Source: a virus. From it: a stretch of DNA of 48,045 bases. Shown in pieces: positions 8,680 through 33,100 of this stretch (the first letter of the stretch is position 1; the number at the start of each line of letters is the position of its first letter). The DNA lies in the IMG/VR virus record IMGVR_UViG_3300022187_000051, positions 1 through 48,045 of that record, one strand, 5' to 3'. Position numbers and translations under genes: made by a program. Below the pieces are notes generated by a model, which worked only from the letters and a program-made list of their open reading frames with translations, was not told the origin of the DNA and did no database searches.

Positions 8680-8712
8680 ATATTAAAAGTTCGATTTTCC
8701 AATTATTTTACT

Positions 8713-8720: not shown

Positions 8721-8778
8721 CCTAACGGTTTGTATATGAGCCGTTGCTACACAGGATTTAATTAAAAGAAACAGATTT

Positions 8779-9033
8779 ATGGATTGGATAAAGTGGAAAT
8801 ATAGACAACTAAAGCAATGGCTTATATACTTTGTTATGTACCGTGCTTTTTGGAAAAAGTTGTGGGTAAGCGAAAGTGATAATTCAAAATGGGAAATATT
8901 GCATGATAGCAAAGCCAAAACAGTAGAATTACATTATGTACCTAATGATGATTATAGTATTGATGATGTGAAAATAAAAATGCAATATGACGATTTTGAG
9001 GACTTAGTGAAGTTTATGATTATGATTCGGTAG
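8779..9033 (+). CDS. Cassette-borne hypothetical protein
   Basis: An 84-residue protein starting MDWIKWKYRQLKQWLIYFVM. It has an amphipathic or membrane-associated N-terminus and a beta-rich acidic C-terminus (DDYSIDDVKIKMQYDDF). Family unknown. AT-rich T-ending codons and flanking hairpins set it apart from its neighbours, so it is probably host-derived. A role in altering the host or excluding other phages is only a guess. Confidence 0.6.
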   Translation: MDWIKWKYRQLKQWLIYFVMYRAFWKKLWVSESDNSKWEILHDSKAKTVELHYVPNDDYSIDDVKIKMQYDDFEDLVKFMIMIR

Positions 9034-9051
9034 CATGGTACATAACACCAA

Positions 9052-9080
9052 GCTATCCCATCGTTTTAATGATGGATAGC
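9052..9080. repeat. Bulged stem-loop at cassette right end
   Basis: GCTATCCCATC (9052-9062) pairs with GATGGATAGC (9071-9080) leaving one extrahelical C. TAAC lies upstream and GTTA downstream. The architecture is attC-like but the core sites do not fit the consensus. Confidence 0.5.
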
Positions 9081-9089
9081 GACTGTTAG

Positions 9090-9109
9090 CGCACGTTTTT
9101 AAATGTGCG
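9090..9109. repeat. Stem-loop CGCAC/GTGCG
   Basis: CGCAC (9090-9094) pairs with GTGCG (9105-9109) around an AT-rich loop. It lies just past the 3' end of the minus-strand regulator gene and may end both transcripts. Confidence 0.45.
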
Positions 9110-9115
9110 GAATAA

Positions 9116-9382
9116 TCAACTAGCCACTAAGCAAACGTCAAAGAAAGTAACAATGTTCATGTTGAACGCTGCGGCTATTCTAACAACGTGTTCCATTTTA
9201 AAGTTAGCCTTTCCACTTTCCATCATTGATATTACGTTTTGTTGAACACCTGAATACCACTCCAACTCTTGTTGGGTGATGTTGTGCTTTTTCCTAAGAA
9301 ACTTTATTCCCCGCCCAAAAAAGTTATTTGCTACTTGTAGTTTTTGGTCTAGGTCTTGGCTGTCAGCGTCTACGTCTTTCAT
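9116..9382 (-). CDS. Xre/Cro-type HTH transcriptional regulator
   Basis: An 88-residue protein with an HTH_3 domain: IKFLRKKHNITQQELEWYSG, then QQNVISMMESGKANF as the recognition helix region and VRIAAAFNMNIVTFFD. This is the Cro/CI family pattern. It is encoded on the minus strand in the middle of the rightward head operon, directly after the cassette. Its promoter overlaps that of the scaffold gene, so it could regulate itself and the late genes. It may have arrived with the cassette and could instead act on host genes. Confidence 0.85.
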   Translation of the reverse strand: MKDVDADSQDLDQKLQVANNFFGRGIKFLRKKHNITQQELEWYSGVQQNVISMMESGKANFKMEHVVRIAAAFNMNIVTFFDVCLVAS

Positions 9383-9414
9383 AAATCTTTATGTTGTATA
9401 GGAATAATAACCTG

Positions 9415-9444
9415 CAAATATAGTAATTATTTTTGCAATAACAA
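9415..9444 (-). promoter_or_regulatory. Promoter of HTH regulator
   Basis: On the minus strand, TTG (9442-9444) is followed by a 19-base spacer and TATATTTG (9415-9422), the canonical Bacteroidota spacing and one of the best promoters in the window. Confidence 0.7.
9428..9435 (+). promoter_or_regulatory. Overlapping rightward promoter box
   Basis: TATTTTTG fits TAnnTTTG, lies inside the leftward promoter region and precedes the TTG-started scaffold gene at 9463. No -33 TTG at the right distance. Confidence 0.35.
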
Positions 9445-9462
9445 CGAGTTAAATTAAAGATT

Positions 9463-10611
9463 TTGGAAAAAGAAAAGGAAGAATTGTTAATTCGCCAAAT
9501 ACGTGGCGATAAAAACAAGGACGAAAGCATTGAAGATAGTTCTTTGAAAACAGACGAACCCCAAGAAGAAGCGGGTAGTACAAAAACGGTAGACGAGCCA
9601 AAAGCAACCGAACCACAAACCGAACAAACCGAAGAATCGGCAGAACAAACCGAACCAACGGAAACAACGGAAAGTGAGCAAGTATCGGATTGGACAGAAC
9701 TAGCCTCTAAAGAAGGTTGGATTTCTCCTGACGCTAAAGACAAGTACTACAACTTGGAAGAAGACCCCTATATTGCCAAACTCATTGAGTTCAAGCAAAA
9801 AGGAATCGACATTCAAGACGCAAACTTTCTTCTTGAGCAGAACGTAGATTACTCATCGTTTGACGTTGAAAATCCTCGCCACGCTATTGAATTGATTACT
9901 AAGGAGCTAACGGTAAACAACCCTGACGCAGACCAAGAAGACATTCATTATTTAGTGGAAAAAGAGTTTGGCGCTCTATACGAAAAAGAGCCAATTCAAA
10001 GGGAAGACGAGTTAGACGAAGAGTACGACGACAGGCTAAAAGATTACAGACAACGTAAGCGTGACGCTGAAGTTACATCTAAGTTCCGAGCGCGTGAAGC
10101 AAGAAAAATGCTCCAAGAGCGACAGTCACAAATGGCAATGCCGAAGGTTGAACAACAACCACAATTAACGCCACAAGAGATTGAAGCTAGAAAAAAGGAG
10201 ATAACAAAACAAGCTGACGCTGCTCTAAAGGAGTTCTCTCAAATCAAAGTGAACGTAGCAGACCAAGACGTTTCACTTGACGTATCCGACAAGGTAAAGG
10301 AGATTAAGAAGACAATGCTAAACGAAGTAGTCTTTGAAAACACCTTCTTTTCCAACTACGTTAAAGACGGAAACATATCTTACCAACAACTCGCAGAAGA
10401 CTTAATGTGGGCAAATAAAGAGACAAGGGACACGCTTATACAAGCGGCAGTAAATCAAGCCTTGTCAGTAGGAGAAGAAAAAACGGTGAAAGCCTTAAAG
10501 AACACGGAATTGCCTACAAAGCCATCTGCGCCGCAAAGCGGAAAGCCACAATTAGAAGGGGCTGACTTACTAGCTTACCAGATAGCACAAAGACGTAGAG
10601 CTAACAGCTAA
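9463..10611 (+). CDS. Capsid scaffolding protein
   Basis: A 382-residue protein located between portal and major capsid protein, the usual scaffold position. Residues 1-75 are very acidic and low complexity, rich in T, E and Q (for example TEQTEESAEQTEPTETTES). The middle is a charged coiled coil (RQRKRDAEVTSKFRAREARK) and the C-terminus ends basic (AQRRRANS), as in scaffolds that bind capsid protein through a C-terminal basic helix. No protease motif is seen. It would direct procapsid assembly and leave before packaging. Start is TTG after an A-rich leader. Confidence 0.75.
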   Translation: MEKEKEELLIRQIRGDKNKDESIEDSSLKTDEPQEEAGSTKTVDEPKATEPQTEQTEESAEQTEPTETTESEQVSDWTELASKEGWISPDAKDKYYNLEEDPYIAKLIEFKQKGIDIQDANFLLEQNVDYSSFDVENPRHAIELITKELTVNNPDADQEDIHYLVEKEFGALYEKEPIQREDELDEEYDDRLKDYRQRKRDAEVTSKFRAREARKMLQERQSQMAMPKVEQQPQLTPQEIEARKKEITKQADAALKEFSQIKVNVADQDVSLDVSDKVKEIKKTMLNEVVFENTFFSNYVKDGNISYQQLAEDLMWANKETRDTLIQAAVNQALSVGEEKTVKALKNTELPTKPSAPQSGKPQLEGADLLAYQIAQRRRANS

Positions 10612-10633
10612 CTTTTAAAACTGCACATAAAAA

Positions 10634-12055
10634 ATGGCAACTACTTTTCAAAGAACGGCTACTGTCAGAAACTATTTGAACTCTCAAATTGTTGACTCTA
10701 GCTACAGTTCTATCACACTTGACAAACCAGAGGTCGGAGATTCTTTGGTTCGTCCTTATGGACTAGGATACCTTTCTAGCCTTGTATCTATGATTGGGAA
10801 TAAGAACATTGTTCAAAACCCACACTACTCTCACTCTGAAGAAAACAGGATTCGTGACGTAATCGTTGCAACGGCTTCAGCTGGCCCTGCGGGTGCTGAA
10901 GTTATCTTTACTGTTGACTCTTCAAAGCAAGCGACTAACTCTAACTCGGCTGCTCCTGAATATGGAACTTCGGGTAGTACTGTCGTAACAATGCCACAAC
11001 AAAACGACGTAATCCTTGTTCCAAACGGTTCAGGAGGACACGTTCAGTGTGTTGTTACCTCTACTACAGACGGTTCTAATCAGTTTAAAGCTACTCCAAA
11101 AATCACAGGAGAAAACATTCCTGCTGTTACCACTGCGGTTGAAATCGCTATCATCGGTACTCAGTTCGGAGAGTCTTCTTCTGAGCCAAGCGCTGTAAAC
11201 CCAACGCTTACTTCTTACACTAACAACACTCAGATTTTCCGTAGAAAAGCTAAGGTTAGTGGAAGTGCTATGGGCAACTTGACTTGGTTTGATAACCTTG
11301 GAGAAAACGAGAACGAGTCTTATTGGTTCTACGAAGGAGTTCGCACACAAAAAGCTAATCTGTTTAACGACAGAGAGACTTCTTTGCTAGTAGGTGAAGC
11401 CACTACCAACACTACCCTTACAGGTATTTCTGGTTTTGGAACAACTAAATCTACAAGCGGTCTAGTTCCGTTTATCGAAGCTAACGGACAACGTGAGCAG
11501 TACACAGCAGGTTCACTTGCTTTGACTGACATCGAATCAATGTCTAAGAAACTCTTCAAGCAAAGAGGTTCTACAGAGAACATGATGGTTGGTGGTCACG
11601 ACTTGATTTTCGAATTTGACAACCTTATCAGAACAAGCGAAGGCTTGAAAGCTGGTGGTGTTCAATACGCTGGAATGGGCGGAGAAAAGAGAGCCGTTGA
11701 TTTAGGTTTTGATTCTATCAACTACGGTGGAATCACTTACCACTACAAGCCACTTGAAGTAATGACTTCTCCTGAGCTTTTGGGAGCAACAGGTCTTACT
11801 TACAAGAACATGGGTCTTGTTATTCCACTAGGAAACGTTGTAGCTTCAATGGACGAGTTCGGAAACGACCGTCAAAACGTTCCTAACCTTCGTATCAACT
11901 GCTTGTCAGATGGTAAAGGAGGCTCAAGGGAGTACGTTGAAGTAGCAAGAAACGCTATGGAGACAGATGGTAACGACGAGTTTGTTATCAACTTGCTTTC
12001 AGAGTGTGGATTTGAAGGATTCGCTGGACAGCGTTTCGGACAATTCTACGTCTAA
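10634..12055 (+). CDS. Major capsid protein
   Basis: A 473-residue protein directly downstream of the scaffold gene and closed by a strong terminator, as expected for the most highly expressed virion gene. The N-terminal arm is followed by VRPYGLGYLSSLVSMIGNKN, then an inserted beta-rich segment (about residues 75-190, small and polar). The remaining HK97-like region includes NENESYWFYEGVRTQKANLF, a P-domain-like helix stretch (DIESMSKKLFKQRG) and the C-terminal VINLLSECGFEGFAGQRFG. Codons are strongly biased to one preferred form per amino acid. The call is from position, length and fold pattern. Confidence 0.8.
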   Translation: MATTFQRTATVRNYLNSQIVDSSYSSITLDKPEVGDSLVRPYGLGYLSSLVSMIGNKNIVQNPHYSHSEENRIRDVIVATASAGPAGAEVIFTVDSSKQATNSNSAAPEYGTSGSTVVTMPQQNDVILVPNGSGGHVQCVVTSTTDGSNQFKATPKITGENIPAVTTAVEIAIIGTQFGESSSEPSAVNPTLTSYTNNTQIFRRKAKVSGSAMGNLTWFDNLGENENESYWFYEGVRTQKANLFNDRETSLLVGEATTNTTLTGISGFGTTKSTSGLVPFIEANGQREQYTAGSLALTDIESMSKKLFKQRGSTENMMVGGHDLIFEFDNLIRTSEGLKAGGVQYAGMGGEKRAVDLGFDSINYGGITYHYKPLEVMTSPELLGATGLTYKNMGLVIPLGNVVASMDEFGNDRQNVPNLRINCLSDGKGGSREYVEVARNAMETDGNDEFVINLLSECGFEGFAGQRFGQFYV

Positions 12056-12071
12056 ACAAAAACGGTTATTT

Positions 12072-12103
12072 GGGGGAGAGCCGAAATTCTCCCCCTTTTT
12101 TTT
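12072..12103 (+). terminator. Strong rho-independent terminator after capsid gene
   Basis: Perfect 8-bp stem GGGGGAGA (12072-12079) / TCTCCCCC (12088-12095) with an 8-base loop and eight T residues (12096-12103). Confidence 0.93.
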
Positions 12104-12120
12104 AAATTAAAGTAAAGAAA

Positions 12121-13197
12121 ATGAAAAAAGAAAGAGGCGCTATATTTGTAGCGGTAGAAAAAAAAGACTTAACTATTAAGCACACAAGCGGAATCAACGT
12201 ATCTTCTTCCGCAACTTCAATTCCAAGAGTATGTATGGCTTTCTGTCCCGAAAAACAAAGGACAGTAATGATTGGTTACGACCCAATGAAGCCAAGCATT
12301 TACGTGGAAGAGTGGGGCGAAAGGTTTAAAAACCTAAACATTAGAGAGGTATCTTTAATCATTGACCCAACAGGAGAGAAGATTCAGATTGCTCAAATGA
12401 AAGGTAAGTACGTAAGACCAACAGAAAAAAATCTTATGCACTACCTTAGAATCTCTCCGTTCAACAAAGACAACCACGCTAAAGATAGCGAGTTCAGAGA
12501 AGAGCAACCAAAGGTTACTGCTTCTTACTACGAGTTGAACTTTGAGAAACAAGCCAAAACCCGTAGGACTTCCGACAAGGAGCAAACAAAAGCGAAAGCC
12601 CTTGTTTACGAAAGTGACTACGAAGCTAAAAAGGCTTACTGTGTTGCAAAAGGAATCAACACAAAAGCACCAGATGGCGCACCTCTTAGTGACGCAGAAC
12701 TAGAGGATATGTTAGCTTACAGAGCCGAGAAAGACCCTGAAACTTTCCAAAAGGAGTACAATACCCCAGAGATTTGGAACGCTTTCTACATTAGAAAAGC
12801 TATCGAAAGAGGGTACTTGTCAGAAAAGGACGGGGGGCGTGTACTTGTTGACTCAACAGGTAACGTAGTGAAGTCTGCTCCTGTATCTCAAAGAGCTATT
12901 GACGCTTTAGCTAAAGGTGCTGCAACAAACAACGCCAACGACGCTTACTCTTTAGACACCATTAAGGGGTTTGTGACGGGTAAAAAGGAAAAGAAAGTTG
13001 TTGAGCGCCAATCGGACAAAAACGTGCTAGACTCAGCAATTAGTTGTGGCGTTATTGAAAAGCAAGGAGACCTTTACCTTTTTGAAGGGGAGAACCTTGG
13101 AAGTTCAAGAACGGCAATCATCAACCGTTTAGATACGGACGAGAAGTTGCGAACTAAAGTAACTAAGCTAGTAGAACTAGAAAGTGAGAACGGTTAA
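12121..13197 (+). CDS. Virion-associated hypothetical protein between capsid and terminase genes
   Basis: A 358-residue protein lying between the capsid terminator and the terminase gene, which it overlaps by 14 bases. The N-terminus is beta-rich (VCMAFCPEKQRTVMIGYD), followed by a lysine-rich linker (KTRRTSDKEQTKAKAL) and a helical C-terminal half with DAELEDMLAYRAEKDPE and IRKAIERGY. It could be a head-completion, decoration or small-terminase-like protein; no HTH typical of TerS is clear. I do not recognise the family. Confidence 0.65.
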   Translation: MKKERGAIFVAVEKKDLTIKHTSGINVSSSATSIPRVCMAFCPEKQRTVMIGYDPMKPSIYVEEWGERFKNLNIREVSLIIDPTGEKIQIAQMKGKYVRPTEKNLMHYLRISPFNKDNHAKDSEFREEQPKVTASYYELNFEKQAKTRRTSDKEQTKAKALVYESDYEAKKAYCVAKGINTKAPDGAPLSDAELEDMLAYRAEKDPETFQKEYNTPEIWNAFYIRKAIERGYLSEKDGGRVLVDSTGNVVKSAPVSQRAIDALAKGAATNNANDAYSLDTIKGFVTGKKEKKVVERQSDKNVLDSAISCGVIEKQGDLYLFEGENLGSSRTAIINRLDTDEKLRTKVTKLVELESENG

Positions 13198-15148
13198 GCA
13201 AGCTTATAAAGCAGCTTACGAATCTTTTGAAAGAAATAGGTACATAAGGGGGTACGAGGTTGAACTACCCAAACCCCCACCAATTTCTTCTATTGCCAAC
13301 TACGGTGAAAAGGACGAAAAAAAGCGCAAATTCCCCTACGCTCCGCTTCCAGATGAGCCAACGCCAAAGCAAAAAGACCAAGAGGTTGAACGGCGACAAA
13401 ACGGCTTTTGGTTCTTTAACGGTTCAGACCAAAACATCCAATTAGAGTACGTAACAGGGCAACACTATATGTTGCTTCAACACTTTCCAATAGTAAGAGA
13501 GGACGGCTCAACGGGTAACGCAGACTTTGTAGACGCACAAAGGGATTGTTACTACGTTTGGGATTTGTTAGAAAACGACCCAAGGTGTTACGGAATGCTA
13601 CTCTTTAGTGGTCGTCGATTCTTTAAGACCACCTTTGCTGTAAGTACGGGGTATTGGAGAACAACTTGGGGTCACAACCGAAACTTCGGGGTTCAAAGTA
13701 AAACTTTCAAAGACGCAAAAGAAACGGTCTTTCGTGACAAGATTGTAAAGGCTTGGCGTAATATGCACCCTTTTTGGCGACCAACAGACACAGGAAACCA
13801 AAACCCAACAGACAAAATAGAGTTCACCGTTCCGAGAAAGAAAACGGCAGAAAAGAAAAAGTCACAAGTACTTGACAGTTATATAGTTACTTATCCAAAC
13901 CGAGACGAAGCAGTGGACGGTACTCGTAACTACACCATGTACCAAGATGAGATAGCAAAAACAGAAAAAGACGTAAACCCCCGAAACAGATACTACGTAG
14001 CAAGGGAAACTTGCTCTATGCGAGACAAGGTTGTTGGAAAGTTAATTCTAACCACTACCGTTGACGAAATGGAGAAAAGTTCCTCTCAACAAACAAAGAA
14101 ACTTTGGGAGGAAAGCAACTACGAGGGAAGAAGTGAAGACACAGGAAGAACCGTAAGTGGTCTTGGGCGTTACTTTAACCCCGCAGACAGAGGGTTTATT
14201 ATTGACGAGTGGGGATATTCAGACGAAGAAGCGGCTAGGAAACACCACATGGCGGAAAGGGCAGCTAGAAGTGGCTCTGCTCTTTTGAGTTACATTAGAA
14301 AGTATCCGTTAAGCGAAGACGAGATATTTTTGGAAAACTCTGACGCTTCTATTGTAGCTGTTGAAAAAGTACAAGAGCAACTAGAACACAACGGCGCTCC
14401 ACCGCCTATGTACAATCTAGTTTGGGACGAGGTTGATGTATCGGTAAAAGCTGTTCCTGTGGGAGAGCAGTTAGTAGACGGAGATACCAACGGTTTTTTT
14501 CAAATAGCTAGTATGCCGTCGGAAGAAGAGCGAAACAACTACGCTTGGAACGGAAACTTTAAAGTGCCTATTGGTCGGGCGATTAAGTTAGGCGTTGACC
14601 CCGTCGACCACAAAGCGGTATCTTTTGGAGAGGGTTCAAAGGTGTCGATGTACGGACTAAGGTACGGTAGTGATTGGGTGATTCGGTATTGCACCAGACC
14701 CGACAACCCTAACGAGTTTTACGAAGATATGATAAAAGCTTGCGTGTTCTTTTCTGCTGAAATAAACGTAGAGAACCAAAAGCAAGGACTGATAAACTAC
14801 TTCAGAGAAAGGGGTTACGAGAAGTACATTATTCACAACCCGCTAGAAAAAGACCCAATAAAAAGATTGCAGACGGAAGGTACGCCAACCACAAGCGAAG
14901 CTAGACGTAACGAGTGCATGGATAAGTTAGTTATTCACACTTGGGAGAAAATAGGAAAGCAAGCCGACGGATACGGGTTCTGTCCTTTTGACGATTTGTT
15001 GGAGAATTGGCTAAGGTTTGAGGCTAACAGTTGGACAAAGTACGATGATACGGTTGCCTCTATGATGGCTATTGTAGCTTGGGAAGTACCAAAGGTTGCT
15101 CCAAGGGTGAGAAGTAAGTCACTTCCAAGGCGAAGATTTACAAAATAA
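13184..15148 (+). CDS. Terminase large subunit
   Basis: A 654-residue packaging motor. The ATPase domain has a deviant Walker A, FSGRRFFKTT (residues 141-150, K148), and Walker B TMYQDE (D255, E256), with TTTVDE (about 290-295) as the coupling motif. The C-terminal RNase H-like nuclease shows LGVDP (D472), INVEN (E530) and KYDDT (D621, D622). The enzyme pumps DNA through the portal and cuts concatemers. The N-terminal 90 residues are an extension before the ATPase. GTG start inside the previous gene. Confidence 0.88.
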   Translation: MRTVKQAYKAAYESFERNRYIRGYEVELPKPPPISSIANYGEKDEKKRKFPYAPLPDEPTPKQKDQEVERRQNGFWFFNGSDQNIQLEYVTGQHYMLLQHFPIVREDGSTGNADFVDAQRDCYYVWDLLENDPRCYGMLLFSGRRFFKTTFAVSTGYWRTTWGHNRNFGVQSKTFKDAKETVFRDKIVKAWRNMHPFWRPTDTGNQNPTDKIEFTVPRKKTAEKKKSQVLDSYIVTYPNRDEAVDGTRNYTMYQDEIAKTEKDVNPRNRYYVARETCSMRDKVVGKLILTTTVDEMEKSSSQQTKKLWEESNYEGRSEDTGRTVSGLGRYFNPADRGFIIDEWGYSDEEAARKHHMAERAARSGSALLSYIRKYPLSEDEIFLENSDASIVAVEKVQEQLEHNGAPPPMYNLVWDEVDVSVKAVPVGEQLVDGDTNGFFQIASMPSEEERNNYAWNGNFKVPIGRAIKLGVDPVDHKAVSFGEGSKVSMYGLRYGSDWVIRYCTRPDNPNEFYEDMIKACVFFSAEINVENQKQGLINYFRERGYEKYIIHNPLEKDPIKRLQTEGTPTTSEARRNECMDKLVIHTWEKIGKQADGYGFCPFDDLLENWLRFEANSWTKYDDTVASMMAIVAWEVPKVAPRVRSKSLPRRRFTK

Positions 15149-15168
15149 AGCCACCTTAGTTTCCTTTG

Positions 15169-15176
15169 TATCTTTG
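15169..15176 (+). promoter_or_regulatory. Late promoter box TATCTTTG
   Basis: Exact TATCTTTG in the 46-base gap after the terminase gene, followed by a leader rich in ACAAACAAACAAAA before the ATG at 15195. Confidence 0.65.
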
Positions 15177-15194
15177 TAGTACAAACAAACAAAA

Positions 15195-16421
15195 ATGGCT
15201 ACACAGAGTACGGCAATTACTTACACCACCGCAATAGCTTTCAATTCTGAAACTATTACTTTTCAAGACACCTCCCCTACTTACGGCTCAGGAGATTTAA
15301 GTTGGGCAGAAGCAAGCAACGCAATTCTTGTAAAGATTACAGACCCAACAGGAACGGTAAGTTACAACAACACAAACGGTTCAAGTCCTGACGCAACAGG
15401 AGTAGACGCAAGTTTCACAACTTCTCTTCCACAAGACGCAGATGGAAACGTTTTGCAAGGTCAGTACATTATTCGCATTACTTATTTTGACGTAAGCGAC
15501 ACAGGGTTATCTAACGCCTACTACAGAGACTATGTTTACACCCTTACTTACTCTCGCCCTGTACACGACATTGATGTAAGCCACAGTATCTTTAACCCTA
15601 AGTTCTTCTTAGCAGTTGACGAAACTGATTACGACGTAAACTCTATTACCCCAACAACAACTAGGGATTTTAGAAGGTACAACCCTACAACTATTGGCGG
15701 TTACATTCAAAGTACAACTAGCACAATAAACACAAACTCCTTTTACACAGGCACAAACACTATTTACTTAAAGTCTACGTTGAGCTACACCTTTACCGAC
15801 GGGTATTGGAGTGACGCAAGTGGAACTGCGGTAAACTACACGCTTACCGACATCATAACTACAGCTGCTTTAGATTACGTGGTTAGCGACACAACTTCGA
15901 TTTGTGATTTCTACTGCCCGCTAAAAGAAGTTTACAACGGGTACTACAACAACAAAACAACCAACGTAGGAAAAGCTAACTCTTACCTTGCTAAGTACGA
16001 AGAGGGGTTACACGCTCTTACGATGCTTCAACTTTCTATTGATTGTGGCAAAAGCACAGACATACAAACTTACGTGAACAGACTAACAGAAATACTAGGT
16101 GACGGATGCGAGTGTTCTTCTACTAATACTCCTACGCTTGTAACGGGAGTTGGCGTTATCAATAACTTAGAAAGGGTTTACTCTAAAACCACAAGTTCAA
16201 ACACAACCGCTTACACTTTCTTGGAGTCGGACGCAGCTACAGGAAGTTCAACAAGTTCAAACGCTGCTCTTATTGGATTAACTTACAACAAAGACTTCAT
16301 TGTAACGGTTGACGGAATAAGTGATACGGGCGGAACTTTCGACGTATCAACGGGTGAATACACATTTAGTTTTACAGTAACAAGTGGTGCTGTAATTCAA
16401 GCAATCATAATTAGACCTTAA
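15195..16421 (+). CDS. Virion structural protein, beta-rich with helical cysteine domain
   Basis: A 408-residue, T/S/N/Y-rich protein. Residues about 1-230 look like two immunoglobulin- or FnIII-like sandwiches. Residues about 236-312 form a helical domain with paired cysteines (CDFYCPLKEVYNGYYN, ECSS) and YEEGLHALTMLQLSIDCGK. The last 90 residues are again beta-rich. It begins a new late transcript after the terminase. Such proteins are often head fibres or tail adaptors; the precise role is unknown. It may interact with the signal-peptide protein encoded next. Confidence 0.65.
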   Translation: MATQSTAITYTTAIAFNSETITFQDTSPTYGSGDLSWAEASNAILVKITDPTGTVSYNNTNGSSPDATGVDASFTTSLPQDADGNVLQGQYIIRITYFDVSDTGLSNAYYRDYVYTLTYSRPVHDIDVSHSIFNPKFFLAVDETDYDVNSITPTTTRDFRRYNPTTIGGYIQSTTSTINTNSFYTGTNTIYLKSTLSYTFTDGYWSDASGTAVNYTLTDIITTAALDYVVSDTTSICDFYCPLKEVYNGYYNNKTTNVGKANSYLAKYEEGLHALTMLQLSIDCGKSTDIQTYVNRLTEILGDGCECSSTNTPTLVTGVGVINNLERVYSKTTSSNTTAYTFLESDAATGSSTSSNAALIGLTYNKDFIVTVDGISDTGGTFDVSTGEYTFSFTVTSGAVIQAIIIRP

Positions 16422-16426
16422 TAACG

Positions 16427-17248
16427 ATGAAACAATTACTTTTAACAGCACTTTTAACTCTTGTATCTTTTGTGGGATTTTCCCAATACAAGAACGTAAA
16501 TCAAAAGTTGTACTTTGTAAACGGGATTAAGATTGGAGACACGCTTAAAGTTGACTCTGCGGGAATTTACGGTTCAGGGCATTTCTTAAAAATCCAAGAC
16601 ACTACCACAAGTCCTTGGACGGTAATTCGCTCTGAAATTGACGCAACAGACACAAGTTTCTTTAACAGAGTTTCAAACAAAATAACGCCTAAAAATGCGG
16701 GAGACACTATTGAGGCTGCTGGATTAGACCTTAACGGTCTTTCTGGGAGTGGTTCGTTCTTAAAGATAGGCAACGATAACCGAGTCACTAGGGGTACTGG
16801 TATTGCTACCGACACAAGTTTTTTTAAAAGAACCGCTAACGGAACTATCCAACCAAAAACAGAAACCGACTCTTTGTATCTCGGCTCTAACTTAAACGCT
16901 ACTGAGTTAAACCTAAAAGGGCAGTTCACTCAAAGTAAAGGAGAGGCTTTTTTGGACAACACAATGGGAGGGCCTAAACTTCTAGTTCTTTCTGGCGCTC
17001 ACAACGTTGACACTATTGCTTACGGTGGCCCTTTCAGAGCAGAGGTTGGCGCTCTTGTAAACACGCGAGTTGGAACGTTTTTAACTATTGTTGGAACAAG
17101 TGGTGTTGTTGACGATTCAGCAGCGGTATTTCTTGATTCCCCGCCTTTTTACCTTAATGGAAACGACACGCTTGGTTCGGGAGATATACTACAATTGTAC
17201 ATCTATAATGAAACTAAGTTTTTAGAGGTATCAAGAAGCGACAACTAA
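16427..17248 (+). CDS. Repeat-containing fibre-like protein with Sec signal peptide
   Basis: A 273-residue protein with a textbook Bacteroidota signal sequence, MKQLLLTALLTLVSFVGFSQ, then a beta-repeat region. A unit of about 45 residues recurs: GSGHFLKIQ ... ATDTSFFNRVSNKITPK and GSGSFLKIG ... ATDTSFFKRTANGTIQPK. The C-terminal 100 residues resemble the closing domain of Bacteroidota fibre or surface proteins (GPFRAEVGALVN). It sits between virion genes with five- and three-base spacing, so it is probably expressed late. A signal peptide on a structural-module protein is unexpected: it may be exported to the host envelope, or the leader may be removed by another route. Confidence 0.65.
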   Translation: MKQLLLTALLTLVSFVGFSQYKNVNQKLYFVNGIKIGDTLKVDSAGIYGSGHFLKIQDTTTSPWTVIRSEIDATDTSFFNRVSNKITPKNAGDTIEAAGLDLNGLSGSGSFLKIGNDNRVTRGTGIATDTSFFKRTANGTIQPKTETDSLYLGSNLNATELNLKGQFTQSKGEAFLDNTMGGPKLLVLSGAHNVDTIAYGGPFRAEVGALVNTRVGTFLTIVGTSGVVDDSAAVFLDSPPFYLNGNDTLGSGDILQLYIYNETKFLEVSRSDN

Positions 17249-17251
17249 TAT

Positions 17252-18199
17252 ATGGCTGTATCTGTAAATAAAGTTTACCAAATCTGCCAAGACTTGATTA
17301 GAAAGTCACAAAGTGGCGGATACTTTGACGAGACTGTTTTTAACAGGTACGCTGATATGGCTCAACGTGGCTACTTTAACGACAAGTACAAAGAAAACGA
17401 GTCAAGCCAAGAAAACGACGACAGCTTACAAACCTTAGACGCAAAACCAAGAGTAATTCAAGTGTCAAACGGAGAGGCTAAATACCCAAGCGACTATTGG
17501 CACGCTCAGTTCTTTCAACTACCTTACAAAGTAAAAGGTCGTACAATCAACGTGGAAACGGTACAGCCCGCAGAAGCTTCAATGAGATTATCTAGTGAGT
17601 TCATCGCCCCAAACGAACAAAACCCTATTTGCGTTTTAAGAGATAGCTACATTCAACTTTACCCAACAACTATTACTCAAGTAGAGTTGTCTTATTTGCG
17701 CGAACCAACCCGTCCTTTTTGGAACTATACGGTATCGTCTAACAGAAAGGTTTTCGCAGGGGCAGGAGGAACGGGAACAAACACCAACCCGTCTAAAAAA
17801 GTTTTCTTAAACACGGGCAACGTAAACACCACATTAAACATTATTTCTATAAACAATCACGGACTCCACAACACACAAGCCGTTCTTTACTCAGACGAAG
17901 GAGGAACAGCAATAGGTGGTCTAACAGACGCAACGGATTACTTTGTTATTGTAGTTGACCCAAGCACTATAAAACTAGCGTCTAGTTTAGCCAACGCAGA
18001 AGCAGGTACGGCTCTTTCTTTGTCGGCGGGAGCGGTTGGTACGTCACACAGTTTAACAATAAATGCCGCTGACCACTCCACAGATTTTGAGGTTAGTGAG
18101 TACGATTTACCAAAGATAGTAGCAAGAATTTTAGCCCTTATGGGAATAAGCGTAAGGGAATTTGACATAACACAAATAGCGGGAGCAGGTGCGAACTAA
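17252..18199 (+). CDS. Head-tail connector/tail protein with inserted beta domain
   Basis: A 315-residue protein. The first 150 residues (VNKVYQICQDLIRKSQSGGYF, NRYADMAQRGYFND) are helical, as in connector proteins. Residues about 195-272 form a separate beta module containing GGLTDATDYFVI and TIKLASSLANAEAGTAL, which is also found twice in the 1360-residue tail protein. The end (EVSEYDLPKIVARILALMGI) returns to the helical connector. The next gene overlaps its 3' end by 11 bases. It is likely part of the neck. Confidence 0.65.
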   Translation: MAVSVNKVYQICQDLIRKSQSGGYFDETVFNRYADMAQRGYFNDKYKENESSQENDDSLQTLDAKPRVIQVSNGEAKYPSDYWHAQFFQLPYKVKGRTINVETVQPAEASMRLSSEFIAPNEQNPICVLRDSYIQLYPTTITQVELSYLREPTRPFWNYTVSSNRKVFAGAGGTGTNTNPSKKVFLNTGNVNTTLNIISINNHGLHNTQAVLYSDEGGTAIGGLTDATDYFVIVVDPSTIKLASSLANAEAGTALSLSAGAVGTSHSLTINAADHSTDFEVSEYDLPKIVARILALMGISVREFDITQIAGAGAN

Positions 18200-18806
18200 A
18201 AGGTCATACGCAGAACAAGTCTTAAGGTTGTTACAGCCACGTCTTAAGCCCGAAACCAAAATAAACATTCGGGAAGTGGAAAGTGCGCTGTCGATTGTGC
18301 GTGACCAAGTTTCAACCATTTACCTTAACCAAGCTGTGTGGGCAAACGAGCTAGGAATTTTTGGCGACTTTATTTCAAACTACACAATAGAAGTAAAGAG
18401 TGATAGTGAACGAGGGCTTACTTACGCCACCCTTCCTGTCCGCCCTCTTGACATCGCAAAGAACTACGGAATATACCAAGTGTTTTCAGCCAAAGATATG
18501 GGAGAGCTTTTTATTCCGCTAAGTAATTCCTTTAACTTTTTCTACAACAACGACTTCTCTTCACAGATGGAAGGGTTGAGTGGGTACATCTACGAAGGAG
18601 AAAACATTTATTTTCAACCAGCCCAAGAAGAAGGGCAAACGCTTCAACTAAACATTGTAGCCACAAGTGACGACCTTGACTCTTTTGATAACTTCCCTGT
18701 TGCTCCGTCTTCGGTGAACGATATTATTAGAGGAACTGTTGAATTAATCACCATTGAAAAGGGGTTAGGAGAAGACATAATTAACGACGAAATAGACCAA
18801 GCTTGA
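18189..18806 (+). CDS. Neck / head-tail joining protein
   Basis: A 205-residue protein starting at GTG inside the previous gene. It is mixed alpha/beta, with RSYAEQVLRLLQPRLKPETK and INIREVESALSIVRDQVSTI at the N-terminus, TLPVRPLDIAKNYGIYQV in the middle and an acidic helical C-terminus. Its position in a chain of four overlapping genes leading to the large tail protein suggests a connector or tail-stub component similar to those of crAss-like and T7-like phages. Assignment is by context. Confidence 0.6.
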   Translation: MRTKRSYAEQVLRLLQPRLKPETKINIREVESALSIVRDQVSTIYLNQAVWANELGIFGDFISNYTIEVKSDSERGLTYATLPVRPLDIAKNYGIYQVFSAKDMGELFIPLSNSFNFFYNNDFSSQMEGLSGYIYEGENIYFQPAQEEGQTLQLNIVATSDDLDSFDNFPVAPSSVNDIIRGTVELITIEKGLGEDIINDEIDQA

Positions 18807-19444
18807 GACCTTTAATTGACATAGTAAAAGATTACGCAGTAGGAAAAGGTTACGATTCAGCACACGGATTTGACAGACTTATTCGTTCGGCTATAAAAGG
18901 GTTACGTGAGTTAAGCTACGACGTTGACGGAATAAATGTTGAAGACACTTACACACTTGACAGCGACAACACCATTCCAATTCCAAACGATTACATTCGC
19001 CACGTATTAGTACGAGGTATTACAAACGGTGGACACGTTGATTTGATTCTTAGTACATCTCGCCCAAAAAAGGACGATTGTGGAGACGACAGATTTACCA
19101 ACAACAACTGTGAGTTCAAAGGTACTTTTGTAGAGAACAGAGCGGCAGGAAGATTAGAGTTTGGAACGGAGTACACCTTTACAAAGATTTGGATGAAGTA
19201 CGTTGCCAACCCGCAAAAGGTAGACGGAAAATACCTTGTCCACGAATTTTTAGAAGAGCCTCTTTTGTTGTGGATGGACTACGACTTGGTAAGGTTCAAA
19301 GACAGCGTGAGTAGAGGTGAAAAACAAATGCGCCACATTGCTTACGCCAACGCTAAGTCTCACGCAAGAAAAAGATTAAAGACTCGAAGAAGAGAAGAAC
19401 TACAAGCCTCGATTAGACGCAACAGAAAACGATTCAAAGGTTGA
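18803..19444 (+). CDS. Neck / tail-stub protein
   Basis: A 213-residue protein starting at TTG overlapping the preceding TGA. It has a helical start ([20 protein letters not shown]), a central beta region with [19 protein letters not shown], and a very basic C-terminal helix ([20 protein letters not shown]) that could contact DNA in the channel. The pattern of helical N-terminus plus beta barrel resembles the T7 gp11-type adaptor. It is followed directly by the homing endonuclease gene. Confidence 0.6.
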
Positions 19445-20016
19445 AAGAAGAAACAAGAGTTTTCACTGGCGGGATTACAGATATAGATGATTTGCAGGGA
19501 GAGGTGTGGATGCCTACGACTATATCTCCTGAATATTATATGGTATCAAATTTAGGAAGAGTAAAAAGTCTAAAAAGGACTATAGTTAGGAATAAAATGG
19601 GTAAGTTTCCAGTTGACGATAGAATATTATCGCAATCTTTTGATAAAAGAGGTTATCCTAAAGTGAAATTAAATTTTAAAAAAAAGAGTGTCACTAGGAG
19701 AGCGCATAGAATCGTAGCTGAGGCTTTCATACCCAATCCAGATAACAAACCGCAAGTAAACCACATAAACGGAATAAAGTCTGACAATAGGGTTGAGAAC
19801 CTAGAGTGGGTTACTAATTCAGAAAACATACGCCACGCAGACGAAAATAAATTAAGGGTGTCTTGCTATAAGCCCGTTGTTAGGGGAGACGGCGTTGAAT
19901 TTAAATCTATTTCAGCCGCAGCTAGGGGTACTATTAATGGGAATGCATCAAATATATGTCAATGTTGTGAAGGCAATATAAAAACATCATCTGGGTATAC
20001 TTGGAAATATAAATAA
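19441..20016 (+). CDS. NUMOD4-HNH-NUMOD1 homing endonuclease
   Basis: A 191-residue protein. Residues 17-45 carry a NUMOD4 motif ([18 protein letters not shown]); residues about 85-135 an HNH_3 core ([39 protein letters not shown]); the C-terminus a NUMOD1-like DNA-binding repeat ([26 protein letters not shown]). It cuts DNA at a specific site to spread itself. The first residues, [11 protein letters not shown], copy the start of the following tail gene (KEETRIFNGGM). This suggests insertion at that gene's 5' end. Codons are T-ending, unlike the upstream genes. Its stop overlaps the tail gene ATG (TAATG). Confidence 0.9.
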
Positions 20017-23000
20017 TGGCTCAGAAAGAAGAAACTCGTATATTTAATGGAGGAATGAACAAGGATGATTCGCCTCGCTTTCTACCCAACGGAGATTGGA
20101 TAGACGCTTTAAACGCTTCTGTTTTAAATAGAGAAGGTACGGGCGGAGATATTGTTACTGAGATTGGAAACGAAGAAATATCGCTTTACCGAAGCTCAGG
20201 CGCTACAACTTACTCTTTACCCTCTGGAACAAACACTACAATAGGAAGCGTTGACGACCCAGTAAGAGGACATACTTATTGGTTTGTACACAACTCAAAC
20301 AACAAACATGTAATACTAAGATACGAGTACGACACAAATATTGCAAGACTTGTCTGGGAAGATAACTCTTACGCCCAATCTTACAATCAATTTAACCTAA
20401 ATTTTATAGGAAGCTTCTTAAGCACAACCGCCTATTCAAAGGGAGATATAGTTTTAGATAGTGGTTCGTATTATACTTTATTGAGGAAAAAATATATATC
20501 TCAAAAAACAATAACAGCCTACAATAATTACACAGATTTAATAACATTAGGTTTCTCTCCAAATTATTACAAAACAGGAGACAAGGTTGTATATAGCGAT
20601 AACGGTGGTAGTGTTGGTGGGTTAACTGACGGAGATACGTACTATGTAATATCTGTAACAAGTGCTACTATAAAGCTAGCAAACTCTTTTGCAAATGCTA
20701 TTGATGGTGTCGCTATTGATTTAACTGGAAGTTTAAGTGGTTCACCAAATTTGGTACACGTAAACGAGGTAAATGATGGTAGTTGTTGGGCTAATATAAG
20801 CGACACGCTTAATTTTAGTTCAAGTTTCCAAATAACTCATGCTGTTGTTGTAGAGCAAAACGAGCGAGTATATCTTATTTGGACAGATAATAACGAACAG
20901 CCATCATTTCTTGAGGTAACATCTATAAACAACCTATCCCCATATCCATATTTAGATAGAAAATTTATTGACTTATACGCCTTTCAACCTCAGCATCCAA
21001 TGGTTTGTACTATTGGTACTGACTCATCAATAGAGCAAAACAGCATCGCTCAAAAAATATTTCAGTTTAGATACGCTTGGAAATTTAAAGATGGAAGAAC
21101 CACAGCTATGTCTCCATCCTCTAGGTTGCCACTACCATCTAAATACTTCTATGAAGACATACACACAGACAATAAAATAGATATTGAAATACCGCTACCT
21201 CACAATCACGAAAATAATATAGTAGAGCAAGTATTGGTTTATGCGAAAGAAAACGGAACAAACAATACTGGTGATTATTACTTGACGGAGGTTTTAGACG
21301 TAGAAGATGAAACTGTTTCAGAATACGACTCCCCGTACTCAGATAGGTATTTGTGGTATATTTCAAAATCATTTTACAACAACTCAATTACATCTGCTGT
21401 GCCTACGACGGTGCAAAATCAAGTTCAAGATTTTATACCCGTAAAGTCTGCTACATTAGCAGTTGTAGGGAATGGTAGAGTTTTATTAGGCAATAATACA
21501 GACGGATATGATTTTGACTTATCTAATTTAGATGTAAACTTTAGCGCAATAACCACTTTAAACCCATCAAACTTAGCCTCTAATTCTGGCGCAAAGGGGC
21601 ATTTTAAGAAAAATAGTAGATACCCATTTGGGATAGTGTACGGTGATAGAAGTGGTAGGCTTACGAATGTTTTAAGGAATGATACGATGTACTTAGACAC
21701 CCCTTATTGGAATTTAGCTAATAGAGGGGAGGTAATGTGTAAAATGACAATCGCTCATGCGCCTCCCTCTTGGGCTGAATTTTGGTATCCAGTTTTTTGC
21801 GGAAACCAAACCACAGATAAATATATACAATCTGCTGCTGCCGCTGTTACAGACCCAGATTTAAGATTAGAAGACCCTAATGAGTACGCCGATAAAATAG
21901 ATTTTCCGTCTTACACCTATACTTTCTCTAATGGTCAATATATTAGAGTAATAGAGGATTTTAGCGCATCTAACTATATGCCTTCATCAAATGGTATATC
22001 TCAAATATTAAAGAGTAACCCAGACGGGACAGAGCCATTTGAGATTAGGACTAATGGGTTTTCAGACTTTACAATCAATCCAAACACATCGGATATGGTT
22101 GAGGTTTTTTCTTTGTCAAATAAAGACCCAAATCAGCAGGTTTGGTACGAAATGGGGTGGGCTTTTAAAATTGAAACAGATGAAAACGGGAATAGGGTTC
22201 ACGGTGGAACTAATAGCTTTTATACCAACGTAAAAAATTATACAGACACGGAGTTTTCTATAACTGGTGTTTCGGGGGGCAGCAACGACATACTCACCAT
22301 AGGTAGCAACACACTATCAACAGGCGATGCTATTTTATATAAAGACGGCTCGGGGGCAATATCAGGATTAATAGACGCTACTGTTTATTATGTTATTGAA
22401 AACACATCTACTACAATAAAGCTTGCAGATAGTGAGTCAAATGCGGATTCTGGTATTTCTATAACTGGATTAAATTATTATGGGGCTGGGTCTTATATTG
22501 TGGGGGAGACAGACATTGTTTCTTGCCAATCTCAGATTATAGGCGGTGCAAACGCTCAGGATTGTGTTGTTGTTTTAGACCAATCGGATTCATACTCAAT
22601 AGACATAGACTTCTATGAGCAAAGTCTTGCTAAAACCCCCATGATAGAAAGTATGGATATATTTCCATTTAAGAACTCTAAAATATCCGTTCAAGGCAGA
22701 CCAAATTTAGTCAACAGTAACTACAAACAAAATATTAGGGAACAAGAGATAGTTTACTCAGAACCCATAGTTGACAACACTGACTTTTTTGGGGCAAACA
22801 GATTTTTCGACGGAAGTTTCAGCGATTCGTTAAACAACGCTTACGGAGACTTAACCGTTATGCACTCTGACGGAAACGAGTTATTTTGTATTCAAGAAAC
22901 AAAGGTCGCAAGGATATTAACTAATAAGAACCTCCTTTACACAGCTTCGGGAAGTCAAAGCCTTAACGTGCAAGCGGATACACTTCTTTCAGAGCCTCAA

Positions 23001-24098
23001 TATTTCCCACAAGACTTCGGCTGTCAAAACCCAGAGAGCTTTTCAGAATACGGTGGTGTTAAGTTTTGGGTGGACAGATTAAGGGGTGCTGTTTTAATGA
23101 GCGCTGCGGGCGAAGTAAAAAACATTGCCCAAATAAAGATGTTAAGTTACTTTGAAAACAACTTAGCTTATCCCTATCCGTACAACGAAAACTCTGACAC
23201 TTTCGCCAACGGAAACAAAATATACAGTGGTTACAGCATTAGAGACAACTCTTACTACATAACCCTTGACGCTCACAAGTTAATAAAAAGAAATGTTTCC
23301 ACAAGCGGAACAGAGTACACAATAACAATGACCGCCTTAGATATAGAAGATGGTACTTTTGATAGGCTTGTGGATATAGGTGTTGTGCCTATAAAGAGCG
23401 AAGTCAACACTTACGACATTGTTTGGGAGGGATTAACAATAACATCTAGTGATTCATCTGCAAAAACAATAACGGTAGACAGCGGTGTTTCCATTGGAAC
23501 TATATTTGCGGGTCTTATATATGTTCCTTTTGTTCAAACCATTTCCTTTTCAAAGGACAGGGGAAGGTGGATAAGCAGACACAGTTTTACGCCTGAGTGG
23601 ATGAGCAGCAGTGGTAACAGCTTAGTTAGCTTTGTTGATGGAAAGTGTTACGTTCACAACCTAACAAGCTACCAAACGGCATTTTTTGGCACTAAATTTA
23701 ATTACGCAAGATACTACGGTTCTGACCCCGCTGGCGCTTTGGACGACACGGTAAAAAACTTGTTTGTAGAGTTTCCGTTTAACCAAGAGCCTAACATTGT
23801 AAAAGAACCAATCACAATAGCCACAGACTCTAATCAAGTATTCAACATTGATTACGCTGTAAACGAGTCAGAGCAAATAACGGACAACGAAACAACAGAC
23901 TACGAAGAATTTGAGGGTTACTATTGGTCTCCTATTTTCAAAGACAAAACAACACCTGTGGTTACTTATCCGTTACTAGAAGGAGACTTAGTAAAAGGCA
24001 AGTACTTAAAGGCAAGGTTAAAGGCAACAACGGATGGAAACCAACAAGCTTCTATATCTTCGGTAAAGCTAAAGTACAATAATAGTAACCTAACTTAA
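20016..24098 (+). CDS. Large tail (nozzle/stabilisation-type) protein
   Basis: A 1360-residue virion protein. The N-terminus (RIFNGGMNKDDSPRFLPNGD, WIDALNASV) is typical of large beta-propeller tail proteins that build the nozzle of short tails, comparable in role to T7 gp12 and the large tail proteins of crAss-like phages. Two copies of a beta module sit inside it, at about 20505-20770 and 22244-22510, each with a GGLTDGDTYYVI / SGLIDATVYYVI and TIKLA core. From about 20400 to 22780 codons are T-ending; afterwards they return to the phage norm. No enzymatic motif seen. Confidence 0.75.
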   Translation: MAQKEETRIFNGGMNKDDSPRFLPNGDWIDALNASVLNREGTGGDIVTEIGNEEISLYRSSGATTYSLPSGTNTTIGSVDDPVRGHTYWFVHNSNNKHVILRYEYDTNIARLVWEDNSYAQSYNQFNLNFIGSFLSTTAYSKGDIVLDSGSYYTLLRKKYISQKTITAYNNYTDLITLGFSPNYYKTGDKVVYSDNGGSVGGLTDGDTYYVISVTSATIKLANSFANAIDGVAIDLTGSLSGSPNLVHVNEVNDGSCWANISDTLNFSSSFQITHAVVVEQNERVYLIWTDNNEQPSFLEVTSINNLSPYPYLDRKFIDLYAFQPQHPMVCTIGTDSSIEQNSIAQKIFQFRYAWKFKDGRTTAMSPSSRLPLPSKYFYEDIHTDNKIDIEIPLPHNHENNIVEQVLVYAKENGTNNTGDYYLTEVLDVEDETVSEYDSPYSDRYLWYISKSFYNNSITSAVPTTVQNQVQDFIPVKSATLAVVGNGRVLLGNNTDGYDFDLSNLDVNFSAITTLNPSNLASNSGAKGHFKKNSRYPFGIVYGDRSGRLTNVLRNDTMYLDTPYWNLANRGEVMCKMTIAHAPPSWAEFWYPVFCGNQTTDKYIQSAAAAVTDPDLRLEDPNEYADKIDFPSYTYTFSNGQYIRVIEDFSASNYMPSSNGISQILKSNPDGTEPFEIRTNGFSDFTINPNTSDMVEVFSLSNKDPNQQVWYEMGWAFKIETDENGNRVHGGTNSFYTNVKNYTDTEFSITGVSGGSNDILTIGSNTLSTGDAILYKDGSGAISGLIDATVYYVIENTSTTIKLADSESNADSGISITGLNYYGAGSYIVGETDIVSCQSQIIGGANAQDCVVVLDQSDSYSIDIDFYEQSLAKTPMIESMDIFPFKNSKISVQGRPNLVNSNYKQNIREQEIVYSEPIVDNTDFFGANRFFDGSFSDSLNNAYGDLTVMHSDGNELFCIQETKVARILTNKNLLYTASGSQSLNVQADTLLSEPQYFPQDFGCQNPESFSEYGGVKFWVDRLRGAVLMSAAGEVKNIAQIKMLSYFENNLAYPYPYNENSDTFANGNKIYSGYSIRDNSYYITLDAHKLIKRNVSTSGTEYTITMTALDIEDGTFDRLVDIGVVPIKSEVNTYDIVWEGLTITSSDSSAKTITVDSGVSIGTIFAGLIYVPFVQTISFSKDRGRWISRHSFTPEWMSSSGNSLVSFVDGKCYVHNLTSYQTAFFGTKFNYARYYGSDPAGALDDTVKNLFVEFPFNQEPNIVKEPITIATDSNQVFNIDYAVNESEQITDNETTDYEEFEGYYWSPIFKDKTTPVVTYPLLEGDLVKGKYLKARLKATTDGNQQASISSVKLKYNNSNLT

Positions 24099-30100: not shown

Positions 30101-33100
30101 AGAAAGGATTATTAATGACGAGTCCACTGTTGAGGTGGGTATTTTTGAAGGTGATATTTTCTTATCTAGTATTTTTGCCTTAAATAAGGGTAAGGGTGCG
30201 GGGCAGCGCGCACTAAAAAAGGTAAAAGATATAGCGGATAAGCACGGAGTAAAAATAAGACTAAACCCTGTGCCGTTTGGAGAGGGCGGAATGAGTGAGT
30301 CTGATTTAGTAAATTGGTATAAGAAAAACGGTTTTTCTTTCGAGCAGGGTAAGGATTTCGGTGAAATGACCTATACCCCAAAAAAGAAATACAACTTAAG
30401 CTCAGATAAATCAAGGGTCGTTGATAAGCCAGATATGGAAAACCCCATTCACGGTATACGTATTGGCGAAAGAGATGTCTTTGTTCAGAGGCTAGATGGC
30501 GATGGGTGGTTTGAGGTCGAGCTAGATGAAGGTGGTGTTTGGATGGTTGTCGATGGCTTAAATAGATTTAATGACGGAGACACTAAATCTGAGGCTATAG
30601 AGGCGTTATCTAAAAAATACAATACAAAACAACAAACAGATGCCCAAGAAATTAGAGAGGTGCGTAAGGAAGGTAAGCAAGAAGCAACCCAAGAAGAAAG
30701 CGTGGGCGATTTGCAAGAGCAGCCTCAAACACAAGAAAAAGTAGCCCCCAAAGATGAAGTAACTGTAACTTACGAAGCCTATAATAGTAAAGGTAAAAAG
30801 GTAACTAAGCAAAGGCGTGGCGTTGTAGAATCTGTTAACGATGATGGTAGTTACGACATTAGGGCAAGAGAGGGAGTTTATAAGGGGGTTAAGCCAATAA
30901 AAATAAACAAGGTAACAAAGAAGCCCACCGTTAAAAGCGAAACAAAAGGTCTTACCGAAGCCGAACAAGCTAAGCAAGGGTTGGAAGAGATTCTTGCAGC
31001 AAAAGAAAGCAAGTTAGCCGAGATAAAACAAAAGCTTAACGACAAGATAGCTCAAGTAAAGGAGAAGTTTAAAGGTAAGCTGTCGGAAGAAAAGCAAAAA
31101 CAGCGAGAAGACAAAGCTGCCCAAAAGGAGTTGACAAAAATCATTAACCAAGAAATGAGAGAACTTGGCTTGGGCGACCTTAGAAGGGGTAGGGTTTCAA
31201 GGCTTCTTTCGGGGTTAAAAAACACAAAGGACACTAACTTTGACCAACAGCTTGAGAAGGTCTATGACGCTTTAATACAAGAAGCAAAGGGTAAGAGGCT
31301 ATCTCAGTACACAAAAAAGGCTAAGAAGGCAGCTAAGAGGGTATCTAAGTCTGATTTTGGTACAAAAGCCAACGCCCTGCTTCCGCTGTTAAGACTTGAC
31401 CCTAAAATAATCCAAGACCAAGACATAGTAAGGTATACTGAAATAGTTGACGCTTTAACTCAAGAAGGTAAGTACAGGGTGGAAGACCTCGACCTTATTA
31501 TAGACGACGCTTTGGAAATTCAACAAAGAGCGGAGGACGCTATAGGTACTTTAGAGGCAGAGGCTTCGCAAGTAGCACAAGGGCTTACCGAAGATAACTT
31601 TACTTCAAGCGTTGCTAAAATGTTAGAAGACGGTGTAATATCTGAGAAGTTGGCGAATTTCCTTACCAAAAACAAAAGAAGGTTGTTAGGGTCGGAGTCT
31701 AAGCCAATAAACAGAGGGCAGTTAGAGTACGAAGTAAAAGATAGGGCGGAGTTTGTTTCAAATAACAAGCCAAAGGTAGAGGATAGTCAAGTGGAAGACG
31801 CTGTTGATACCGTGGTTAGCGTTACGCAAAGTGACTTAGATAACTTAACCCCACAACAACTTTCACTGCTTAACAGAGTGTTAGACGCTATGGAGGTTGG
31901 TATTGTCCCTAGCCAAGTAATAAGAGTGGCAAGGGATATTACAGCGTTTAGGGAAGCTAGTAATATTAACGAGGAGTTAAGGTCACAAAAAGGTGTTCGA
32001 GGAAAGATAACCACAGTTATAGAAACGCCACTAAAAACTCTTTTCGATACAAAAAGAGCAAAAACCGAAGCAAGGGTTCTTAAGTCACAAACCCCTGAGA
32101 TTGACGCTGCGCTAGGATTTAAAGGAAGGGCAATAGACGACGCTTTGCGTAAGTTTAACTTAGGGTACGCAAACTTTTCAGCAGAGAAGTACAGAAACGA
32201 TGCTCAATTAGCAACGCTGTTAAAGGGTATTAGAAAAAACGAAGAGTCGGACATCAAAGCCTTTATGTACATGGCTGAACTTCAAAGTCGCTCAAACCCC
32301 GACTCAAAGAAGGTTCACTCGGTAAGAGAATTGGTGGAGGTTCTTAACAAAGACGCTAGGTCGAGAAACGAGTTCATAAAAATTTACGGCAAAAAAAGAT
32401 TGCAAAGCATCAACGAAATGTTGGAGCAGTTCAAAGATGAGGACGGGGATTTGGATGTGGAAGCCGTTTACGAATCAATGACCAAGGCGGAAAAGAAGTA
32501 CGTTGACGGGGTGAGAAAGATTTTAGACGACACAACACCAAAAGCAAGAGCCGCTGCTTTTATGCGCAGTGAGCCTTTCGAGGAGTTTGAGAACTACATA
32601 AACTATCCCGTTGTCTCCTCTATGACAAGGGATAAGGTAAGCGCTGCGGTGGAAAGTGTTATGCGTGGTGGTAACGTAAACAATATGTCAACTAGGTCGA
32701 TGCTAAAGGAAAGGCAAGTTGCTGTACCTCCTGTTTCTTTTTCTTTGGCTGAATCTGTACAAAACTCTTACAACGAAACCTTAAAAGATTACTACCTAAC
32801 AGACCCCTTAAAGACAGAGTTCTCCGCTTTAAATAAGCTAAGTGAAATGGCAAAAGACGAAGAGGGTATGTCTCAAGTAGTGGAGGGGATAAGAGACGGT
32901 ATTCGTGTTCAGCGAAAGCACCTTTTAAGAACCCAAGCAACACAAGGATTAAACAGTAAGCTTTACAACCAAGTAACAGAGGCAGCTTATAGATACTTAT
33001 TGGGCAGCACTCAAAGGTTTGTGGCGGAAGGGTTATCTAACGCACTTTATGTACTTACAAGTGACCCCAACGCATTTAAAGAAGCTATATACCTAGCTGA

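Follow-up and report, generated by a model that had tools for sequence, protein, structure and literature searches.

Free-standing homing endonucleases favour conserved target sites, and such sites lie in important genes that the insertion must not destroy. Splicing is how introns and inteins meet this constraint. The virus DNA analysed here, positions 1 to 48,045 of IMG/VR record IMGVR_UViG_3300022187_000051 (hereafter the window), raises the question of how an HNH endonuclease gene can occupy the first codons of a virion gene that is full length. A sequence-only reading of the window had proposed that the nuclease gene inserted just inside the virion gene, retained the old start at its own 5′ end, and left the invaded gene to be restored by a second copy of the start. 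From sequence comparisons with nuclease-free relatives and with HNH genes of other phages, we consider it very probable that a free-standing NUMOD4-HNH gene invaded the first codons of the virion gene as a cassette, composed of the nuclease body and a diverged, functional replacement start.

A chimeric endonuclease gene between two virion genes

The HNH open reading frame (positions 19441..20016, plus strand) begins with TTG, encodes 191 amino acids and was assigned from Pfam matches, similarity to I-HmuI and a structure model. The protein carries a NUMOD4 domain (residues 21-78, positions 19501..19674, plus strand; 40.9 bits) and an HNH_3 domain (residues 86-129, positions 19696..19827, plus strand; 48.1 bits), both over the curated Pfam cut-offs, as well as a weak I-HmuI-like NUMOD match at residues 149-188, and it is matched by the I-HmuI structure 1u3e with E=6e-6. 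The HNH residues H89, N107, H108, N116 and N120 are invariant among 23 relatives. Judged by these matches, the window nuclease is an ordinary NUMOD4-HNH (I-HmuI-like) homing endonuclease, with activity predicted.

The chimeric part of the gene is its 5′ end. As had been noticed from the sequence alone, NUMOD4 begins only after the start that the nuclease shares with the virion protein. The first residue of NUMOD4 relatives aligns with residue 20-22 of the window protein, so its first ~20 residues are an extra that is specific to it. In an AlphaFold model with a mean pLDDT of 89, confidence is high from residue 21 onward, with pLDDT values of 55-58 for residues 1-20 versus at least 96 for the next 20 residues; in the model, the first 20 residues are a loose tail on a normal nuclease.

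Both neighbouring genes overlap the HNH gene. Upstream lies a virion structural gene (PHROG 13977; 18803..19444, plus strand, from its open reading frame and PHROG match) whose TGA stop overlaps the old start codon TTG, now that of the HNH gene, as TTGA. Downstream, the ATG of a second virion structural gene (PHROG 14478; 20016..24098, plus strand, from the same kinds of evidence) overlaps the HNH stop as TAATG. This second frame encodes 1360 amino acids and aligns with the homologue in a nuclease-free relative (G003) along its whole length; the target gene is thus not in two pieces, its full length being restored by a new start. No sigma-70-like promoter was found inside the insertion region. 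The virion genes at 17252-18199 and 20016-24098 have a repeated stretch in common, at about residues 179-253 of the larger protein, which is also present in related phages.

The likeness of the two N-termini, and the run of identical coding bases seen in the earlier reading, are real. The run GAAAGAAGAAAC is common to the HNH start and the virion start (12 bases with the preceding G), and the start-to-start score of 49 is rare among mismatched pairs. Start codons in all comparisons described here were deduced from alignment.

An empty allele defines the insertion

A second IMG/VR contig (IMGVR_UViG_3300034375_007944, here G001) is without the HNH gene and is 99.9% identical to window positions 1-19472 and 30277-48045. 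Its site reads GGTTGAAAGAAGAAACAAGAGTTTTCACTGGCGG followed by CTTAAACAAAGACGACGAC and then by CCTCGCTTTCTACCC, and its virion gene begins at the TTG from which the HNH gene is read in the window, in overlap with the upstream stop codon. The native virion start of 32 nt (19441..19472, plus strand), which is now the HNH 5′ end, is identical in G001 at 32/32 bases and continues there via CTTAAACAAAGACGACGAC into the virion gene. The ungapped match between the window and G001 stops at 19472 and restarts at 20073, from which point 99/99 bases agree up to the end of the G001 contig. The inserted cassette is therefore 600 bp (19473..20072, plus strand) in place of 19 bp, and it comprises the nuclease body and, as its final 57 bases (20016..20072, plus strand), a ready-made divergent virion start. 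Although the G001 contig ends 99 bp beyond the junction, an assembly chimera is unlikely there, since the junction encodes GGLNKDDDPRF, the same as in G003.

Other relatives complete this picture. Another contig, G002 (= L001), carries the nuclease and otherwise hardly differs from the window; the presence of the nuclease at this fixed site thus varies among near-identical genomes, being found in the window and G002 and absent from G001. G003, which is free of the HNH gene, has the same TTGA start and matches the HNH start at 27/32 bases. In G004, also HNH-free, the TTGA overlap is kept and the start sequence has diverged. In relatives without the nuclease the virion gene therefore starts at the position of 19441, as was to be expected if the old start had become the HNH 5′ end, and the proposal that the nuclease gene inserted just inside the virion gene stands. 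The overlap of TTG and TGA, present in G001 and in both of these more distant relatives, is ancestral and the nuclease derived, given that G003 and G004 have the overlap and no nuclease.

Close to the site, the window differs from G001 by a cluster of four synonymous changes (19408..19420, plus strand) that fall within 13 bp, spread over a run of five codons in the upstream gene and lying 52-64 nt to the left of the insertion. The two sequences are identical between this cluster and the insertion, and leftward there is no other difference back to 17668. These differences may represent a co-conversion tract, with the cluster as its possible left end, or part of the site of the nuclease.

About 12 kb of G001 (from the end of L108 to the start of L109) joins both ends of the window, and the window is probably an incomplete genome and possibly a circular one. 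The corresponding slot in L011, in front of a distantly related virion gene with an FTGGLNKDD start, is occupied by an open reading frame for a GIY-YIG-like endonuclease (L011:7708-8007), which makes two nuclease classes at this position. The start mimicry of that gene was not convincing, and it was not taken as a case of start copying.

The replacement start is probably not a copy of the native one

The earlier reading held that the virion gene was restored by a second copy of its start. A complete second start is indeed present, but it is not a fresh duplicate of the resident one. We compared the 48 bases between the start codon and CCTCGC, over which the restored start and the native start of G001 differ at 17/48 bases, mostly synonymously, whereas the native starts of G001 and G003 differ at just 6/48 bases, even though the virion protein of G003 is only 59% identical. 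Within the window, the two start copies have 8/29 DNA mismatches, which makes them less alike than the similarity of the proteins suggests, and 5/8 of the residues common to both use different codons. Copies so poorly alike in DNA argue against a recent tandem duplication. Most likely, the restored start arrived together with the nuclease, already diverged, from another lineage. Searches of IMG/VR with the peptide patterns FNGGMNKD and GG[ML]NKDD did not find a donor with the restored virion start; the matches were only carriers or more distant relatives.

Start copies recur at other phage genes

We surveyed 178 HNH genes from IMG/VR and GTDB genomes, scoring the N-terminal part of each protein against the start of the gene that follows it and against the starts of all the other downstream genes. 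A score of at least 45 was obtained for 4/178 own pairs versus 2/31,506 mismatched pairs, both of the latter being phages that share a target gene; the window score of 49 was reached by all four own pairs and by a single mismatched one (1/31,506, two phages with the same target gene). There are thus four convincing copies of the next gene's start among 178 HNH genes, chance accounting for about 0.01. These firm cases are the window, L018 (same as L017), L046 and L158; they sit at three unrelated genes, encoding a virion protein, Prim-Pol and dUTPase, and the replaced end is the amino terminus in 4/4. The pattern is found in a minority, about 2%, of the HNH genes surveyed.

Some weaker candidates were set aside. 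The start-to-start matches of L176, L150 and L035 have protein scores at or near chance and are not counted, and L081 proved to be an artefact of a truncated open reading frame. The weak similarities between the HNH start and the next gene's start at L176:2839-3600 and L150:2914-3560 (MKN..., MK..L.FI) are possible further cases. At L035:1129-2346 the pair is suggestive, in that the HNH start MQNPR, located within the last part of the upstream gene, returns in a different spelling at the head of the following gene. No convincing start copy was present among 18 HNH genes of six annotated phage records, and no relatives of the downstream proteins of L035 and L046 were found in GenBank phages. 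In Lactococcus phage P1048 (L326, 61389-64785), the annotation divides the ribonucleotide reductase alpha-subunit gene into three pieces, and an HNH gene separates the third piece from the second, which points to either a split gene or an intron.

The HNH genes of L018 and L046 precede the same type of gene, identified as Prim-Pol by the Pfam match of L018. These HNH genes start with MDELNSLLSFAWQ (L018) and MEELTPLLSFAWR (L046), their own restored starts are MDELQELLSFQWL and MDELQNLLSFAWK, and the nuclease-free relatives L316 and L317 start with MQELNNLLSFAWQ and MEELNNLLSFAWQ. The HNH starts differ from those of the nuclease-free relatives at 10-13/39 nt, versus 17-18/39 from their own restored starts. 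The HNH genes that L315 and L320 carry before Prim-Pol have no copy of the Prim-Pol start, although the L315 contig begins too near the gene for certainty.

The dUTPase gene provides an independent check

The cleanest independent check of the cassette reading is the dUTPase case. In L158, the HNH gene starts with MNLSKLFELQRQLDE and the dUTPase gene behind it with MNIQKLFEMQKQLDLRIE. The dUTPases of isolates AP45 and A403, counted as nuclease-free because no nuclease is annotated directly before dUTPase, start with MNLSKLFELQRQLDE: 14/14 compared residues are the same as in the L158 HNH start, from which the two differ at 3 (AP45) and 6 (A403) of 42 bases. L331 (2465-2850) and L332 contain a decayed copy of an L158-type nuclease, with an internal deletion and a frameshift, and this relic is flanked by a native-type start (MNLAKLFEMQRRLDE) on its 5′ side and a restored-type start (MNIKKLFELQKQLDLRIE) on its 3′ side. 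After decay of the nuclease, as these two sequences show, the restored start stays as the start of the gene.

Comparison of L158 with L331 reveals a mosaic, in which the restored starts differ at 5/42 bases and the adjoining nuclease sequence at 5/62, while the native starts fused to the nuclease differ at 13/42 (13/42 vs 5/62, Fisher p=0.003). Such a mosaic is as expected if the nuclease and the restored start move together as a single cassette and the recipient's own start then becomes the nuclease 5′ end.

Alternative explanations

Since the nuclease has a copy of the same start on either side, tandem duplication at the time of insertion, resembling a target-site duplication and followed by drift of the second copy, was the simplest reading from the window alone. 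We regard it as improbable, for the genome elsewhere is 99.9% identical to the empty allele, yet the window copies have the mismatches described above, and at dUTPase two phages have restored starts that are more alike than their neighbouring native starts. That the N-termini resemble each other by chance or convergence might be entertained on the grounds that the shared stretch is short, about 11-15 residues; however, the exact empty site refutes chance and the survey statistics speak against it, leaving this reading next to no weight. Just as implausible is a group I intron or intein whose splicing restores the gene. Group I introns are a frequent location of HNH and NUMOD4 proteins, but the window nuclease is an open reading frame of its own with a stop codon, no Rfam match occurs in 18800-21000, and splicing is not needed because the virion gene has a complete start after the nuclease.

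A less remote alternative, though still an unlikely one, places the nuclease in the ancestry of G001, which would have recovered its empty start through recombination with a phage lacking the nuclease; the window cassette would then be old. Recombination in either direction would account for the clustering of differences near the site. Preference for gain over loss in this pair rests on the outgroups G003 and G004, which have the empty arrangement and suggest that the window was invaded. The loss reading bears only on which of two near-identical phages changed last, and leaves the structure and origin of the cassette unchanged.

A possible route of invasion

The position and borders of the insertion, the in-frame fusion of the native start to the nuclease, the restored full-length gene, the recurrence of the pattern and the decay of the nuclease are directly visible in the sequences, and cassette invasion could have produced them as follows. 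In a nuclease-free phage, the enzyme would have cleaved or nicked the conserved start region that encodes GGLNKDDDPRF, and repair from a nuclease-bearing relative in a mixed infection would have joined the two in homologous sequence (CCTCGCTTTCTACCC) on the right and at GGCGG on the left. Because of its overlap with the end of the upstream gene, the old start could remain, and it would now begin nuclease translation by translational coupling, while the replacement start would keep the virion protein intact. Carriers would be immune, their nuclease site being interrupted and the restored copy having a different spelling. The different spelling would also limit recombination between the copies, which would delete the nuclease. 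It may have been selected, or may merely reflect a divergent donor.

Relation to known mobile elements

Mobile open reading frames with a replacement gene terminus are known from fungal mitochondria, in Allomyces atp6 and in Glomus atp6, atp9, cox2 and nad3, where the native fragment has 91-98% nucleotide identity to a relative and the inserted copy 64-81%, and the gene is full length (PMC3630166). In those elements, as probably in the window, an endonuclease gene inserted in a conserved gene has brought a foreign copy of the gene end and has left the native fragment on its far side (PMC3630166). The asymmetry by which the Allomyces type is recognized recurs in the window, with a native fragment identical to G001 and an inserted copy that differs at 17/48 bases, and likewise at dUTPase. 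However, the fungal elements replace the carboxy-terminal end, encode LAGLIDADG or GIY-YIG enzymes and are mitochondrial, whereas the phage cassettes replace the amino-terminal end and encode NUMOD4-HNH enzymes; moreover, unlike in the fungal case, the nuclease takes its start codon from the native remnant, to which it is fused in frame (PMC3630166). Tremella mitochondrial introns are similar in that a mobile element swaps in a carried homologous piece of the host gene, but that system is intron-based and the carried piece, as described, resembles the exon after the insertion (PMC7315562).

Among phages, T4 mobA in gene 60 and Aeh1 mobE in nrdA resemble the window in being free-standing endonucleases within a conserved gene, with start/stop overlap (PMC2988022). 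In those cases the target is split into two polypeptides, whereas the window cassette brings a new start, which keeps the virion gene at full length (PMC2988022 for mobA and mobE). The I-HmuI-like HNH genes of lactococcal Skunavirus belong to the same nuclease class and are site-specific free-standing phage insertions; the passages considered make no mention of N-terminal remnants (PMC12724721), nor of duplicated target starts, which are likewise absent from the passages considered in another paper on phage HNH genes (PMC12724721, PMC10448857). The literature searched, mostly outside subscription journals, contained no phage precedent for a start-replacing cassette.

It is an even question whether the cases described here represent a general, previously undescribed class of phage homing endonuclease cassettes, which would invade gene starts, reuse the start codon and first codons of the victim, and carry a pre-recoded start that rescues the gene and immunizes the carrier. 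While fungal mobile open reading frames carry a new gene tail, the phage nucleases examined here appear to carry a new gene head. The window and G001 provide base-exact occupied and empty alleles of such an insertion. The pattern explains the puzzling N-terminal extensions of some HNH proteins and makes the target of a nuclease predictable from its own first codons. It also serves as a warning that phage genes can have foreign starts.
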